A model generated the notes under the pieces. That model saw only the letters and a list, made by a program, of their open reading frames with translations. It was not told the origin of the DNA and ran no database searches. From Candidatus Gastranaerophilales bacterium (GTDB taxonomy: Bacteria > Cyanobacteriota > Vampirovibrionia > Gastranaerophilales > Gastranaerophilaceae), in contig CALUTO010000003.1 of assembly GCA_944323735.1 (NCBI GenBank), positions 1-64,000 of the forward strand: DNA of 64,000 bases, read 5' to 3'. Each line of letters opens with the position of its first letter. Positions within the stretch are counted from its first letter, which is position 1. This document shows positions 7,064 through 14,545 of this stretch, in pieces. A program made the position numbers and the translations under genes.

Positions 7064-9817
7064 GTGATGATAAATAAAATTACCGGCAGTGTGCATATAA
7101 GCAACAGTTATGAAAAGAATGTACAACAGGCGGCAATGCCGGAAAAAATAAACGAGAACACCGCAGCGGACGTTGTAAAAGTTCCTGCTGAGGCCTATAG
7201 AGCATACAGCTGTGTGAATTTTAAAGGAAGAGAAACGGGTTTTGTTGAAAGAAATGTTTATAATGATGCAAAATCCGCTCTGTCAACAACTGCTCCCGAT
7301 GAAACAGTCACGCTAAAACAAGCTGTAGAAATATTGAAACCGCTGGAGTTAAACGAAAAAAAGCTGCTTGAATATCTTCTCGCCTGTTCATATGACTCTC
7401 ATGATGAGACTGTCACGGTAAACAAGCAGGCTTTGTATTATTCAATACTTCTAAACGGCGGTTTTCTTGATGTGCCTTCTACGAAGATTCCTAATGTTAT
7501 AGCCAGCAGCCTTGATAATGAAAACAGATGCTTTTCTAAAAACAAGTTCGATAGTTTGTTCAATGCTGCAGGACAGATTCGAATGACAAAAAGAAAATCC
7601 CTGAAACGTCCGAGAGAAGACAACTATACTGATGCAAGAAAACTTGCGCTGCTGCATAAAACCATTATTACAAAAGAAATTTCAAAAATTTTAAAATCCG
7701 AACCTCCGAAAAGTGCTGAGATAATTGATGCTGAAGATATTTTTTCCATAGATTTAGAGCGGGAAAAACTGGAAATGCAGACTGAACTCGGGAATTTAAA
7801 AAATGATGGGAAAATTTCTGACGGGTTGTATAAAGAGCTTTGCGCAGGTTTGAAAAACAATGATTTTGATTTGAAAAATCAGGTAACGGATTATTATTCA
7901 CTCCTTGCAGACTGTAAAACTCTTGAGGAGGCAAAAGAAATCTATCCGGAAATAAAAATTCCCGAACTGCCTTTAGATAATAACGGATATAAAAGACTGT
8001 TAAGATGCCGGCTTGCAAAAGAGGATATAGACAAAATAGGTCTTTATATTCTCAAAAAACTTTATATTGAACAGAAAAAACCAGATATGATTTTTGTTGA
8101 GCTGGATAACAGCTATCCGACAACGTATCAGTCAATGATAAAAGCCGGCTTTGATTTTGGCAGACTGCCGGCAGAACTTTCTTCCATGATGGACAAAACA
8201 TCAAAAATGCTTGAAAATTTTAGAGCCATTGACTCGCTGGATAGCAGAACGCTTGAGTTCTTAATCAGGCGTAATGCCTCAAAAGAAAGCCGTATCTGGG
8301 CAGAATACACCGGTATTACTAACAAATACTGGCACCCTGTGAGAGCTATTGCACACAAACAGAAACATCCTGTCACATCTTACTATCAGACAGACAAACT
8401 CGTAAACGGATACCTTTTCTATCTTTACAGGTTCCAAAACGGTGCAATTCCGTCAAAAAATCCTATCGAGCAGTATGCAGACGGAAAACCTTTTAACAAA
8501 GAAAAGAAAGCATTTCTTGAAAATATCTACTATATGTACAAAAACAACTATAATCCGCTTACAAAAGGGGAAAAATTCCTTGATTTCAAGAAAAATTTTG
8601 ACACGGAGGAAATGGAAAAATCGCTGACAAAACTTGAACGTCATTATAAAAACACGTTCGCTAACTGGTTTATGACTCCTGAACGCCGCAGCAGATACGA
8701 ACAGGCACTGGACAATTCATACAGACTGCTCTTTGAAAAAATGGATGCCTGCAAAACTTCAAACAAAACAAAAACTGTTAATGTTGCAGAAATTCCGGCG
8801 GATAAACTTTCAAATGAAGAACTTGTTGATTATATTGCAGAAACAGAGAACGATGAAACACAGAATATTGAAACTGATTTCAAAAAGCTCAAGAATATAG
8901 TCTTTGCAACGAACAATAGTGAGCTGATGACTCTGTTTATGCAGTATATAGGCGTAAGTGCAGATAATGTTGATTATGAAAACTTTACACAGTATAAACA
9001 ACTTCTGGATAGATGTATTGAGAACAATGAAATTACAAACCCCGACCATGCCGTTGTTATGTTTAAGCTTTATAACTCCTATCTGACTTATTTATTCAAT
9101 GAAAATGCACAGCAGGTAAGTTTTGAAGATTATGAAAAATTGGCGGCAGAAAAATATATACAGCCTGACGGCAGTATTAATTACAAAAAAATGAGTTCTG
9201 ACTTGTCTGCAGAAAACGAGTTTTTAGAAATTTATGCACAGTCGGATGATGATGAAAAAACAGCATTTTTGAATTTGTTGGGCAAAAAATTTGTGTCAGA
9301 TGGCAAAGAGGATTACAAAACAGCTATTGATGTGATAAAAATGTATGAAAATCTTCCGCAGATTTTTAAAACAAAATTTTATTCTCTTGCTGTTTCAACC
9401 GATAAAGTAAATGATAGAATATTTGCACGGCAGTTGACAGATATGTATGAAAAAATTTCATCATGGAATCTTGACTCTGATGAAATTATAGCCTTGGACT
9501 CAGGAAAAATTCCGCAGAAAGTTGTTATTACCTCAAAAGCCAAGTATGCGATTTTGGAGGATTGCAATGAAAATATTGACCGTTTTGATGTTATATTAAA
9601 CAAATTCTTTTCGGCAGCAACAAAACGTGTGGGAGAACATCAGGGGCAGGGTATAAAAGTCCTGTCTGCAAATACAGGCTATGCAGCAGAACTTAAAATA
9701 CAGGGTTCACAGGCTATAGGCAGCAAGCGGCTCTATGCCAGAGAAGCTCAAAATGATGATATTGAAAAATACGGCAATGTTAAATATGTATTTGATACAT
9801 TTGACAAACATTTGTAA
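7064..9817 (+). CDS. 917-aa orphan protein with N-terminal FKG tag
   Basis: A large, mainly helical, soluble-looking protein that I do not recognise; no signal peptide, membrane helix or nucleotide-binding motif is visible. The N-terminus (MMINKITGSVHIS) is followed by a low-complexity stretch and the motif VNFKG at residues 51-55, which recurs in five other proteins of the window. The region around 180-240 is strongly basic, then acidic/helical. The C-terminal ~60 residues (GQGIKVLSANTGYAAELKIQ) look like a small separate domain. The stop is 12 bases before the CheR-like gene, so the two are probably one operon. Preceded by GGTGAAGGTGAAGTG, a purine-rich ribosome site. Confidence 0.8.
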   Translation: MMINKITGSVHISNSYEKNVQQAAMPEKINENTAADVVKVPAEAYRAYSCVNFKGRETGFVERNVYNDAKSALSTTAPDETVTLKQAVEILKPLELNEKKLLEYLLACSYDSHDETVTVNKQALYYSILLNGGFLDVPSTKIPNVIASSLDNENRCFSKNKFDSLFNAAGQIRMTKRKSLKRPREDNYTDARKLALLHKTIITKEISKILKSEPPKSAEIIDAEDIFSIDLEREKLEMQTELGNLKNDGKISDGLYKELCAGLKNNDFDLKNQVTDYYSLLADCKTLEEAKEIYPEIKIPELPLDNNGYKRLLRCRLAKEDIDKIGLYILKKLYIEQKKPDMIFVELDNSYPTTYQSMIKAGFDFGRLPAELSSMMDKTSKMLENFRAIDSLDSRTLEFLIRRNASKESRIWAEYTGITNKYWHPVRAIAHKQKHPVTSYYQTDKLVNGYLFYLYRFQNGAIPSKNPIEQYADGKPFNKEKKAFLENIYYMYKNNYNPLTKGEKFLDFKKNFDTEEMEKSLTKLERHYKNTFANWFMTPERRSRYEQALDNSYRLLFEKMDACKTSNKTKTVNVAEIPADKLSNEELVDYIAETENDETQNIETDFKKLKNIVFATNNSELMTLFMQYIGVSADNVDYENFTQYKQLLDRCIENNEITNPDHAVVMFKLYNSYLTYLFNENAQQVSFEDYEKLAAEKYIQPDGSINYKKMSSDLSAENEFLEIYAQSDDDEKTAFLNLLGKKFVSDGKEDYKTAIDVIKMYENLPQIFKTKFYSLAVSTDKVNDRIFARQLTDMYEKISSWNLDSDEIIALDSGKIPQKVVITSKAKYAILEDCNENIDRFDVILNKFFSAATKRVGEHQGQGIKVLSANTGYAAELKIQGSQAIGSKRLYAREAQNDDIEKYGNVKYVFDTFDKHL

Positions 9818-9829
9818 CAGGTGTCATTT

Positions 9830-10624
9830 ATGAACAGAATTACATATATAGATACAAATTACGGACAAATCAACAGAAACAATGTTTCATTTAAAGCAAA
9901 CAGAAGAACCTATGAACAGGACGTGAATGATGTTAGTATGGGCTGTTATACGGGTTTGTTCAGAGGCGATATAAACTGGCGGAGGTTAGGAGCGTATATA
10001 CTTTCGCATTTTAATAATAAAGATAATGTTAATCTGGTGATGTTTGCTTCATCAGACGGTTCAGAGGCTTATTCTACGATAATATCACTTCTTGAAGCAG
10101 CCGGAGACAGGAAAAATCAGATAGTAAAAAAATTCTTTCCGGTAAAAGCATATGATTATGACAGGGAGATTTTATGTGCAGCAAAAAGCGGTTTGATAAA
10201 TCTTGAGCCTGATGACAGAATGGCAATGCAGATGTACTGTGAGGATTATCAGGATTATTTTACGGAAACAGACAAATCACTTTTTATAAAAAATGAAGAA
10301 AAATCTCCTTCCGCACGTAATGTTAAAACAATGAAGGCAAAAAAAGTTTTGACGGACAATGTGAGATTTGTCCGTGCCGATATGTTTTTAAAAGTCAGAG
10401 AGCTTGATGATGAAGACGGAAATACAATTCTGATGTGCAGAAATGCGCTGGGATATTTTGAAAATGACAAAATAGAAAAATTTATAAAAGATGTTTCAAA
10501 CAGATTAAAAACAGGCAGTCTTTTTATTGTGGGTGTTCATGACAGTGTTTTGTTTGATGTGGATTCTTGTTTAAAAGAAAACGGTTTTGAAAAAGTTATG
10601 GATAAAGTTTATAAAAAAACTTGA
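9830..10624 (+). CDS. CheR-like SAM-dependent methyltransferase with FKA tag
   Basis: A 264-aa protein whose core matches CheR-type methyltransferases: SAM loop NLVMFASSDGSEAYS (68-82, compare the CheR AGCSTGEEPYS pattern), the acidic ribose contact KAYDYDREILCAAKSG (106-121), RADMF (182-186) and the MCRNALGYF strand (202-210). The CheR N-terminal helical domain is replaced by a short tail carrying VSFKA at 19-23. A GTG start nine bases earlier is possible, but CAGGTG then serves as the ribosome site for the ATG at 9830. No chemoreceptor or CheB is in the window, so the substrate is probably not a chemotaxis receptor. Confidence 0.75.
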   Translation: MNRITYIDTNYGQINRNNVSFKANRRTYEQDVNDVSMGCYTGLFRGDINWRRLGAYILSHFNNKDNVNLVMFASSDGSEAYSTIISLLEAAGDRKNQIVKKFFPVKAYDYDREILCAAKSGLINLEPDDRMAMQMYCEDYQDYFTETDKSLFIKNEEKSPSARNVKTMKAKKVLTDNVRFVRADMFLKVRELDDEDGNTILMCRNALGYFENDKIEKFIKDVSNRLKTGSLFIVGVHDSVLFDVDSCLKENGFEKVMDKVYKKT

Positions 10625-10801
10625 AAAGGATTTTAATGTGACTGCAGAAAATTTTTAATAATATCTTGTGAAGGTTTCTTATGCATGATGTATATATATA
10701 AGTGTTACGATTTTAATGGTTCTTCAAAAATAGGTTGTATTTCATTGAAAAATTTCTGATTATGATATATCCTTATATAAAAATTTAAAGGAAATGTCGC
10801 T

Positions 10802-12055
10802 ATGCGTCTTAAACCTGCAGCAATAACTCCGGATAAATTATACAACAATATAAAAAACAATCAAAATAAATGCATTTCTTTCGGGGTATCGGAAAATATA
10901 AAACAAAATAAAGACGTTTTCGAAAAAAGTGATAAAATTGAAAAACCGTCCGTAAAAAATACAAATACAATAAAAGAAGAAATAAAAGACGGCGTAAAAC
11001 AGAGTTCACAGGCAGGTAAAGATGATGCACCGGTCTTCTTTGATTATGACCAGCAAAATCCGAAAGTAAGAAAAAAAATACATATAAATTTCAGCAAATA
11101 TAAAAATTTGGCTGAATTAACTCAAGATTATTTTTATAAATATATAAATGAAAGTGTAAATTCACTTGGTGAATTTGCTTACACGCTTGAATGGGAAAAA
11201 GAAGGACACGGGGTAGAAATACCGAACTGCATATTAATAGAAGATCCGGCAGATAAAATAGCAGACGATTTAATAAAAATGACAAAAGACATGTCGGATG
11301 TAGAATATGCGGCAGTTGAGGGCAAAGAAGGACTGGCAATGTTGAAAGAAGTGGATGCGCAGATGGAAACGGCAAAAGCAAAATTCAAAAAAACAGGCCG
11401 TCGTACGTTATTAAAAGTAGATAATTTTGACAAAATCTGTATGCAGGGGCTTCCTTTTGAAATAGGCGAATATATGAAGTCAGTAACAACATCTTGTGCA
11501 GATGATTATGGAACTACAATAATTTTTAAGACAAAAAGCAGCCACAAAATACTTTCAGAAATACTTGAACCCCATCGTTGCGGAATAATATGTAAAGCTC
11601 ATAATTATAGCAATGCGCAGCTTTGTAAAATTGCAGAAGAACAAATAGCAAAAGAAGCACCGGCTTTGACAAAACTGATAGAAAAAGAGCAGGAAGAAAT
11701 AAACAGACCTAAAAATGCACAGAAAACCACACCGGAAGTGGAGACAGCCGTACCGGAAAAACCGTCCGTAAAAAATACAAATACAATAAAAGAAGAAATA
11801 AAAGACGGAATAAAACAGAGTGCACAAAAATTGGAAGACGCTGCCAAAAAAGAATTACAGGAAATAAAAAGCGAAATAACAGCCAATCTGCCAGGGAAAA
11901 GAATCGGTAATAAATTTAAAAAAATATTTTTTCTGATAATTGCCCCGCTGGGTGCAATTACTGGTGCTGCAGTAAAATTTAAAGATAAAATACTCATATT
12001 TCTGAAAGGTTTAAAAAATGAGAATAACAGCAATAGCGGGACAGAACAGAAATAA
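10802..12055 (+). CDS. pseudo-AAA+ protein with C-terminal membrane helix
   Basis: This 417-aa protein shares a ~125-residue module (139-263) with the AAA+ ATPase downstream, but the P-loop position reads IEDPADKIADD (146-156) and Walker B reads LLKVDNF (203-209), so the Lys and the catalytic Glu are gone. The sensor-1 strand is TTIIFKTKSSH (238-248). ISFGV (25-29) is a diverged tag. A 24-residue segment occurs twice (47-70 and 319-342). A hydrophobic helix (374-392) near the C-terminus suggests membrane anchoring. The last 38 bp overlap the AAA+ gene in another frame, indicating tight co-expression. Confidence 0.75.
   Translation: MRLKPAAITPDKLYNNIKNNQNKCISFGVSENIKQNKDVFEKSDKIEKPSVKNTNTIKEEIKDGVKQSSQAGKDDAPVFFDYDQQNPKVRKKIHINFSKYKNLAELTQDYFYKYINESVNSLGEFAYTLEWEKEGHGVEIPNCILIEDPADKIADDLIKMTKDMSDVEYAAVEGKEGLAMLKEVDAQMETAKAKFKKTGRRTLLKVDNFDKICMQGLPFEIGEYMKSVTTSCADDYGTTIIFKTKSSHKILSEILEPHRCGIICKAHNYSNAQLCKIAEEQIAKEAPALTKLIEKEQEEINRPKNAQKTTPEVETAVPEKPSVKNTNTIKEEIKDGIKQSAQKLEDAAKKELQEIKSEITANLPGKRIGNKFKKIFFLIIAPLGAITGAAVKFKDKILIFLKGLKNENNSNSGTEQK
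10940..11004 (+). repeat. 65-bp direct repeat, copy 1
   Basis: This segment, starting GAAAAACCGTCCG, recurs at 11756-11820 with 63 of 65 bases identical. It encodes the lysine-rich segment around NTNTIKEEIKDG. Both copies are in frame within the same gene, so it is an intragenic duplication. Confidence 0.9.
11756..11820 (+). repeat. 65-bp direct repeat, copy 2
   Basis: Second copy of the repeat at 10940-11004, with two adjacent base differences (GACGGCG versus GACGGAA). It lies just before the C-terminal membrane helix of the same protein. Confidence 0.9.
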
Positions 12056-13199
12056 CACAGCTAACAAACAAATAAAACTAAACAGGCAAAATACAAATCT
12101 TTCTAACAGTCCTTCTTTTAAGGCAGTCAAGGGGCTTGGAGACAACGGGGAAAATCTTCTAAAGCTGATAAGAGATTTTATAGCAAAAACAGGCACTGAA
12201 AAGAACTATTTGAATGCAAGATATGCGGAACTGGAAGCTGCATATTCCGAAGCAATAAAATCAGGACTCGAACAAAACAAACTGGCAGTAATTGAAAAAT
12301 TAAAAGAATTGAAAATGCAGGTTCTGGATTTATACTGTAATGTAAGAACAGAAGGCAGTACATTATTAAATCAACTTTTAGACATTGAATTAAAGGTACC
12401 TATAAAAGTAGAACCGGTAAAAGGTTTCGGATTTGGAAAAATAGCCGGATATGACGATATAAAGAACATACTGAACAGAGAATTTATCAGCAGAATAAAA
12501 CAGGAAAAAGAAGGCAAGAACGTAACTATTCCCGGTGTGTTTGCCTTTTTTGGCCCCAGAGGCAGCGGCAAAACGACATCTACACTGGCTATAGCAGAAG
12601 AGACAGGATGTATTGTAGAAAAAATTGATGCGAAACCTTTTGATTTGCCTGAAACTGTTTTTGCAAAATTCAAAAGACTTTTTGAAAAAAGCCGGGATAA
12701 TTTTGCAAAAGACGGGCGCAGGATTATTTTCATGGATGAATTTACAAAATTCAATAAAGGTGAGGACAGTAAAAAACAATTTGCAGAGCTTTTAAAGGAC
12801 TGCAGTGACAGGTACAAATGTACATTTTTTGGCGCAACAAACCATATATCGCAGGCGGGTGAGGATTTTATGAACCTTAAGCCCGTTCTTGTTGCGTTTG
12901 AGCCGGCTTCAAAATATAATGCAATACAAATATTAAAACATTATCTGCAAGACAGTGCTAATAATAATATAAATTATAGTGAAATTGTTGATAAAATATT
13001 AGAGCTTTGTAAACTTAACAAAGGAGGGATAAGTAATTCCCGTTTAATTGAAATTGCTAAACAGGCAAAAAAAACTACACTTAATGTAGACACAGGTGAC
13101 GTTATCAAAGTTGCAAGTCAATATATTGGCGAAAAAACAATTATTCCGCCTCAAGAGATGAAAAGATTTGCGGATGATTATGAAAAATTTATGAAATAG
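12018..13199 (+). CDS. AAA+ ATPase with N-terminal FKA tag
   Basis: A 393-aa ATPase with a complete AAA+ core: GYDDIKN (144-150), Walker A GPRGSGKT (179-186), Walker B IIFMDE (236-241), sensor 1 FFGATN (270-275), and a sensor-2-like GGISNSRL with Arg342. Residues 1-31 are low-complexity, followed by the tag PSFKA (32-36); 45-125 is a helical, coiled-coil-like segment. It is the only member of the local trio with all ATPase residues and presumably drives a complex with its two degenerate neighbours (inference). Start MRITAI matches MRISAI of the next gene. Target unknown. Confidence 0.85.
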   Translation: MRITAIAGQNRNNTANKQIKLNRQNTNLSNSPSFKAVKGLGDNGENLLKLIRDFIAKTGTEKNYLNARYAELEAAYSEAIKSGLEQNKLAVIEKLKELKMQVLDLYCNVRTEGSTLLNQLLDIELKVPIKVEPVKGFGFGKIAGYDDIKNILNREFISRIKQEKEGKNVTIPGVFAFFGPRGSGKTTSTLAIAEETGCIVEKIDAKPFDLPETVFAKFKRLFEKSRDNFAKDGRRIIFMDEFTKFNKGEDSKKQFAELLKDCSDRYKCTFFGATNHISQAGEDFMNLKPVLVAFEPASKYNAIQILKHYLQDSANNNINYSEIVDKILELCKLNKGGISNSRLIEIAKQAKKTTLNVDTGDVIKVASQYIGEKTIIPPQEMKRFADDYEKFMK

Positions 13200-13215
13200 A
13201 AAGGAATGAAAGAAG

Positions 13216-14205
13216 ATGAGAATTTCTGCAATTACAAACACAGCACTTTTAAACAACAGAAAAAATACAGCACAGACTAAACACTCCTTCAAAGGAGAAT
13301 ATTATCCGTCCGGCTACTATGAAGATTATGAAATAAATATAGCAAAACAATTTATAAATCAGACAGGTGATGAATGGAAAACACAGCATAAAAAAAATAA
13401 ACAAACTTCGTTTTCTGATATGTACTGGGAATCGGGCGGATTGAATCATATAACATCAGTTTTGACACGTCCGTTTTGTTATGACTGGGATGAGGCGAAA
13501 ACTATGTCCAGAATATTGCTCGACAGTGCCACATGCTTATTGTGGGAAATAGCAAATGCTCCCTTTGCCGCAGCGGAGGCCGGTCTTAAAAAAGCAAAAG
13601 AAAATAAAATCCTGAACAAAGAAGTAGAAAGAATAGGAATGCTCATCTGTGATATGAAAGCAGAAAAGGAGCAGCAGCAGATTGCAGGACATATAAAGAA
13701 GATAGATGAAATACTTGACAAAACAGAAAAATCAAACAGAGTAATGTCCTATCAAAAATCTCTCAAAGATGGATTTTCTACACCCGTAGAGGATGAAAAA
13801 CTCGGGAAAAATGCAGAAATTCCTAATGTGATTATGATTGAAGAAAAAAATGAAAAACTGGGTAAAGAGCTCATAGCTTACACAAGAAAAAATTCACAGG
13901 TCTATTTTGACTTTGTACAGGAGAATGAAGATAATATAGAGATGATGAAGGACCTCGACAGCAAACTGGAAAAAGCAAAAGAAGCTTATGACAAAAACGG
14001 AACAAGAACTCTTATAGAAGTAGAAAATTTTGGAAAATTGATAGATAATAACAATCCTTTTGAACATCTGGAATGGATGAAAGGTCTGATGACTGCCTGT
14101 GCCGAGGATAATAAAGCTACGATTATTTTCAGGACAGATGATTCTTCGAACTATTTATCTGAAGCACTTGAGCCACACAGAATCGGATTAAAAGTGAACT
14201 GTTAA
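13216..14205 (+). CDS. pseudo-AAA+ protein with N-terminal FKG tag
   Basis: A 329-aa protein whose C-terminal ~130 residues (200-329) align by eye with the neighbouring AAA+ ATPase and with the 417-aa protein: P-loop position IEEKNEKLGKE (208-218), Walker B position LIEVENF (266-272), sensor-1 position IIFRTDD (303-309). The nucleotide-binding Lys/Thr and the catalytic Glu are lost. The tag HSFKG is at 23-27. It ends right after the sensor-1 region (LEPHRIGLKV), so it has no lid domain. AAAGGA precedes the start, 16 bp after the AAA+ stop; same operon. Confidence 0.75.
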   Translation: MRISAITNTALLNNRKNTAQTKHSFKGEYYPSGYYEDYEINIAKQFINQTGDEWKTQHKKNKQTSFSDMYWESGGLNHITSVLTRPFCYDWDEAKTMSRILLDSATCLLWEIANAPFAAAEAGLKKAKENKILNKEVERIGMLICDMKAEKEQQQIAGHIKKIDEILDKTEKSNRVMSYQKSLKDGFSTPVEDEKLGKNAEIPNVIMIEEKNEKLGKELIAYTRKNSQVYFDFVQENEDNIEMMKDLDSKLEKAKEAYDKNGTRTLIEVENFGKLIDNNNPFEHLEWMKGLMTACAEDNKATIIFRTDDSSNYLSEALEPHRIGLKVNC

Positions 14206-14545
14206 AATATAGATTTTTAAATTATGTATACAGGCGGCTGGAATATAACCTGCCGCCTGTGCTATGTGAAAAGTTTTTATATAGACGTTTGTATCCGAAA
14301 TATCTAAAATCGTCACCGTGAACTTACAGCAGTGCTTGTTGTTTAGCATAAGAAGTTTTACAAAGACAGATATTATTTCAGAGTCAAGCAGCGGTAAAGT
14401 TACACAGTTTAGTGCATTTGTTTGGATTTCTCGTCACCTTGAAAAAGCATTCAACAGAATATCCGGTAAAGAATTCTATATAAGTCCCGGTAAAAAAAAT
14501 GTTGAAAAACTTTTTTTTTATTGATATAGTATCAATACACAATAT
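14206..14545. other. intergenic stretch before tRNA-His
   Basis: About 340 bases with no gene I can support. It holds a GC-rich hairpin ACAGGCGGC/GCCGCCTGT (14230-14260) shortly after the last gene of the tagged operon, without an adjacent T-run, so it may be an mRNA 3' end structure rather than an efficient terminator. A 68-codon open frame at 14318 lacks a ribosome site and looks accidental. Confidence 0.5.

Follow-up and report, generated by a model that had tools for sequence, protein, structure and literature searches.

LAP1 and LULL1 are AAA+-like, have neither Walker motifs nor a small domain, and supply Torsin with a strictly conserved arginine as its finger; they also bring this ATPase to the membrane, and Torsin itself has been compared with ClpB-D2 and the HCLR clade (PMC4358337, PMC4999309). 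The window analyzed here, the whole stretch of 64,000 nucleotides from a 2.06-Mb assembly of Candidatus Gastranaerophilales (G000), holds three consecutive genes, all on the plus strand, with a comparable division of features. Gene B (12018..13199, 393 aa) encodes an active-type AAA ATPase without an arginine finger, and genes A (10802..12055, 417 aa) and C (13216..14205, 329 aa) encode degenerate, or dead, AAA+ modules that are putative finger donors, A with a C-terminal membrane helix and C soluble and lidless. Complementary loss of the P-loop and the finger among subunits occurs in RFC and the bacterial gamma complex, and magnesium chelatase BchI/BchD is a bacterial pair of an active and a degenerate AAA+ protein; unlike in BchI/BchD, a Pfam search found no VWA domain in A or C. 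We know of no classic AAA ATPase that has lidless dead partners encoded alongside it.

The closest working analogue of A-B-C appears to be Torsin-LAP1/LULL1 rather than the clamp loader. Like TorsinA, B is the active subunit and has no arginine finger. Like LAP1 and LULL1, A and C are AAA+-like without Walker motifs and carry a conserved arginine as the putative finger; C has no small (lid) domain, and A is predicted from its hydrophobicity to be membrane-anchored. Torsin has no pore loops, and here the aromatic-hydrophobic-Gly motif is absent in 67 of the 69 active members across the order. Unlike Torsin, which is not a classic AAA protein, B is bacterial and falls in the Vps4/FtsH/p97-like clade instead of the Torsin/Clp (HCLR) group, and the likeness is thus convergent. 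The system also differs from Torsin-LAP1 in having two dead partners in one operon. Its dead and active parts are moreover clearly homologous in sequence, which suggests an origin by duplication, with the P-loop lost in one copy and the finger in the other. The A-B-C machine is presumably cytosolic, with no signal peptide noted.

The start of B overlaps the end of A by 38 bases and only 16 bases separate the B stop codon from the C start, indicating a single operon. Pfam identifies B as a AAA ATPase (PF00004, E=2.9e-10, above the cut-off), and its predicted structure comprises an N-terminal helical region followed by a full AAA core and lid, with archaeal Vps4 (E=2.5e-11), Thorase, FtsH and PAN as the nearest folds. 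B is therefore a full classic AAA domain by its top sequence and fold matches, resembling Vps4, Msp1/ATAD1, FtsH and p97 in sequence, fold and lid. A GFGKIAGYD segment (12429..12455) directly precedes the core, which contains Walker A (GPRGSGKT, residues 179-186, 12552..12575), Walker B (IIFMDE, residues 236-241, 12723..12740) and sensor 1 (GATN, residues 272-275, 12831..12842). Unlike in the classic AAA ATPases, the pore-loop motif and the arginine finger of the second region of homology are absent from B. The segment in which the finger is expected (NLKPVLVAFEP, 12873..12905) contains no arginine, and there is none anywhere between sensor 1 and strand 5.

Searches of Pfam and NCBIfam gave no significant match for either A or C. 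The two modules are 43% identical to each other (E=4e-30), and an alignment of 54 dead sequences matches one of 62 active sequences in hhalign with a probability of 99.8 (E=1.2e-29). Searched by itself against the PDB, the dead-only profile finds p97/VCP, Cdc48, AFG2 and Vps4 (best E=1.5e-8), and a weak similarity to Pfam AAA is seen in 16 of the 54 dead members, at E of 0.1 or lower and 1.2e-5 at best. In A, the degenerate large domain spans approximately 11225..11600 by alignment, with EDPADKIADD (11240..11269) at the Walker A position and LLKVDN (11408..11425) at Walker B; the corresponding segments of C are EEKNEKLGKE (13840..13869) and LIEVEN (14011..14028), and the catalytic glutamate of Walker B is replaced by asparagine in both proteins. 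The model of C shows a five-stranded AAA core with strands at a pLDDT of about 96-98, and its top Foldseek match is p97 (E=5e-6). C has no lid, because the predicted core stops directly after strand 5. A and C thus carry AAA large domains that have lost Walker A, the glutamate of Walker B and the lid, and a few of their distant dead relatives (L077-L080) retain the lid. The initial annotation had proposed that the three neighboring proteins share one module, that the middle one has an intact set of motifs, that the flanking ones lost the P-loop lysine and the catalytic glutamate while keeping the strands of the fold, and that one partner ends in a membrane helix; all of this agrees with the present comparisons, and the predicted structure and the profile analyses place the flanking modules among AAA+-like proteins. 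The helix is IFFLIIAPLGAITGAAVKF in A (residues 375-393, 11924..11980), predicted by hydrophobicity. A hydrophobic helix is predicted for 27 of the dead proteins and 5 of the active ones, commonly for one dead subunit per cluster.

What the initial annotation missed is that both flanking modules retain an arginine at the finger position (R259 in A, 11576..11578; R322 in C, 14179..14181; both in an EPHR motif), which from the sequences appears to be the key feature of the locus. In a PDB profile alignment, the arginine of the PHR motif in the dead modules aligns with the first arginine of GRFDR in VCP-like ATPases, which is the first finger of classic AAA proteins. R322 of C lies in the loop joining the last helix to strand 5. 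The residue is near-invariant in the 54 dead homologues: only three positions, this one included, reach 90% conservation in these sequences, whose mean column identity is 16%. Across the order, 65 of 70 dead modules carry the finger, compared with 23 of 69 active modules. Of 48 active modules without a finger, 37, among them B, have no arginine at all within 22 residues after sensor 1. The Fisher value of 5e-14 for these finger counts treats related sequences as independent and is overstated, and an independent-pairs test on the tree offers only 1-3 independent contrasts, too few for significance. The conservation of the arginine in a divergent dead clade, together with its absence from most active paralogues, is the stronger argument. 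The split is not universal, since about a third of the active members have a finger of their own.

The dead modules retain the finger that B lacks, and this suggests a mechanism. The most probable reading, inferred from the homology, reciprocal losses, finger retention, co-occurrence and co-divergence seen in sequences and models, is an obligate hetero-oligomer of the three proteins, with the ATP site of B completed in trans by A and C. B would bind ATP through its intact Walker A, Walker B, sensor 1 and lid, and, being finger-less, it could not complete its own active site. A and C would bind no nucleotide and would present their fingers to the ATP held by B, confining hydrolysis to the B-A and B-C interfaces. 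The C-terminal helix of A would tether the complex to the membrane. There, ATP-driven cycles of remodelling or assembly would be more likely than substrate threading, because the conserved pore-loop motif is missing. The operon encodes two dead subunits per active one, a point against this reading in that several stoichiometries would fit.

Relatives of this set are confined to one order in our data. B relatives (E<=1e-9) were found in 97 of 383 genomes of the Gastranaerophilales order and matches to the dead profile (1e-12) in 119, some of which probably match through other AAA proteins. The 41 matches obtained from 240 genomes sampled across the class all fall in this order. No B relatives were found in viral contigs or phage records, and no C relatives in plasmids. 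The initial annotation had proposed looking for the three genes together in related genomes, and they do recur: the A-B-C set is also present in L021, with overlap and order conserved, and in L064, reordered, while L020 has B-C. Both active and dead members occur at 44 of the 50 sampled loci. A finger-bearing dead subunit is present at 43 of these two-class loci, and 40 have a finger-less active one as well; the four without a finger-less active member are L031, L032, L076 and L101. Two layouts dominate among the 50 sampled loci, one with a finger-less active and two dead members (12 loci, including the window) and the other with a finger-less active, a finger-bearing active and a dead member (14 loci). 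Across 37 loci, the active members without a finger and the dead partners that bear one show correlated divergence (Mantel r=0.78, p=1e-4). The tree contains one old dead clade (support 98), and two later dead lineages, L031/L101 and L077-L080, apparently arose with the finger again retained; each is placed beside active members from its own clusters (supports 91 and 93).

Some members of the family have unusual architectures. A 639-aa protein (L028:10114-12033) comprises three tandem degenerate AAA modules with the finger in the last only. The clusters in L077-L080 are expanded, with several ATPases and two dead members, one of which has a lid, and in L077 one of the ATPases is a tandem double AAA protein.

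The cassette is accessory. In the congeners G002 and G003, a CheR-like gene is directly followed by tRNA-His, whereas in the window a 3.9-kb segment (10634..14541), holding exactly A-B-C, lies between them and ends at tRNA-His (14547); no integrase was found inside it. Orthologous cassettes in L020 and L021 have different neighbors, and the cassette appears to move between genomes. Such behavior would suit an accessory system for defence or mobile-element conflict that uses AAA proteins, a role compatible with the split-site mechanism. The discrete insertion at tRNA-His and the patchy distribution of the family in the order are consistent with it, and some relatives adjoin a type III restriction enzyme, reverse transcriptase, resolvase or Mu-like transposases. 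Against this role, the PADLOC search gave nothing for A or C and no convincing match for B (IetA, E=0.0017; PDC-M40C, E=2.8e-5, covering the N-terminal part only), and the neighbors of the clusters are mostly housekeeping genes; most GajB matches near the clusters are probably ordinary UvrD helicase. The neighbors give only a hint of mobile-element conflict, and we hold a defence role as a possible but tentative reading; a function in such conflict, or in the envelope, is at present a guess.

Several observations on the neighborhoods stand apart from this question. An apparent set of 13 clusters beside a Mu transposase was rejected, as the shared gene encodes a lineage-specific protein of about 450 aa. 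This fourth gene of the second cluster type is fused to a Mu-like transposase only in L089 (10339-13077), where the transposase is in frame with the C-terminal part of the conserved protein, a fusion that apparently arose by insertion. Upstream of the cassette, a 917-aa ORF (7064-9817) has no significant family match and represents a separate insertion relative to G002 and G003. The CheR-like methyltransferase that adjoins tRNA-His in those genomes (9821-10624 in the window) has an N-terminal [SN]F[KGTSRQ][GA] motif. The same motif occurs within the first 60 residues of unrelated proteins in the window (7064-14205) and at many loci, often after D[TSV]F[VEI]K. With a slightly looser pattern, the N-terminal motif is found in 57 of the 150 ORFs of the AAA family and in 42 of the 406 remaining ORFs of the same loci, and in only 6 of 161 ORFs in arbitrary stretches of this genome. 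It is possibly a lineage-specific sorting or docking signal.

Alternatively, A and C could be paralogues with a regulatory or targeting function, capping or inhibiting B, in which case the arginine would be structural and B active as a homo-oligomer. Pseudo-enzymes often act as inhibitors, and more than one stoichiometry would fit the set. The arginine argues otherwise: most active paralogues (46/69) are without it, so the fold does not need it, but few residues of the dead clade are as well conserved. Moreover, a homo-oligomer of B would be finger-less throughout, since B has no arginine within 22 residues after sensor 1. We therefore consider pure regulation improbable and prefer catalysis completed in trans by A and C.

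The initial annotation had compared the one-active, two-dead AAA+ set with clamp loaders; the set itself stands, and the comparison gives way to Torsin-LAP1/LULL1. In a clamp-loader-like DNA machine, the AAA+ subunits would form an asymmetric ring that loads a protein onto DNA, the ATPase without a finger being placed at one end and the dead subunit that bears one at the opposite end. The delta-prime subunit of the gamma complex indeed has a finger without a P-loop, and in PHROG B matches phage clamp loaders best (E 1e-9 and 6e-9), probably through generic AAA similarity. A-B-C differs from clamp loaders in belonging to a different AAA clade, as the fold matches of B indicate, in the predicted membrane anchor of one dead subunit, and in having no collar. 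Neither the B model nor its fold matches show any sign of a collar domain after the lid, and there is no room for one because the core and lid occupy the C-terminal 260 residues. The NCBIfam RFC and dnaX models score far below their cut-offs against B (E 0.001 or worse). A clamp-loading function is thus very unlikely. That A and C are decaying duplicates of B on the way to becoming pseudogenes is hardly credible: their loss of Walker A, the Walker B glutamate and the lid would fit decay, but their reading frames are intact, the dead clade is ancient and order-wide, gene overlap and order are conserved in L021, and one catalytic residue has been selectively retained.

Completion of the ATP site of B by A and C remains the preferred reading of the locus. 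For the wider set, we found no description of this AAA+ family in the literature, and the evidence tilts us modestly towards an undescribed, order-specific bacterial split-site AAA+ family that is independent of Torsin-LAP1. In such a family, ATP-binding and finger-donating roles would be divided in two recurrent layouts, the P-loop would have been lost repeatedly with the finger kept, and compact cassettes would move between genomes. Activation of a AAA+ protein by the arginine finger of a dead partner is best known from one eukaryotic system, the human Torsin-LAP1 complex, which is linked to dystonia and whose oligomeric state is disputed. If the proposed mechanism is true, the dozens of natural variants of this bacterial family would make it possible to test on simpler proteins how split machines originate, come together and work, in a setting where the active and dead subunits are recognizable homologues and the losses are recurrent. 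It would also open a first mechanistic view of gene families that are unannotated in the uncultured gut relatives of cyanobacteria.
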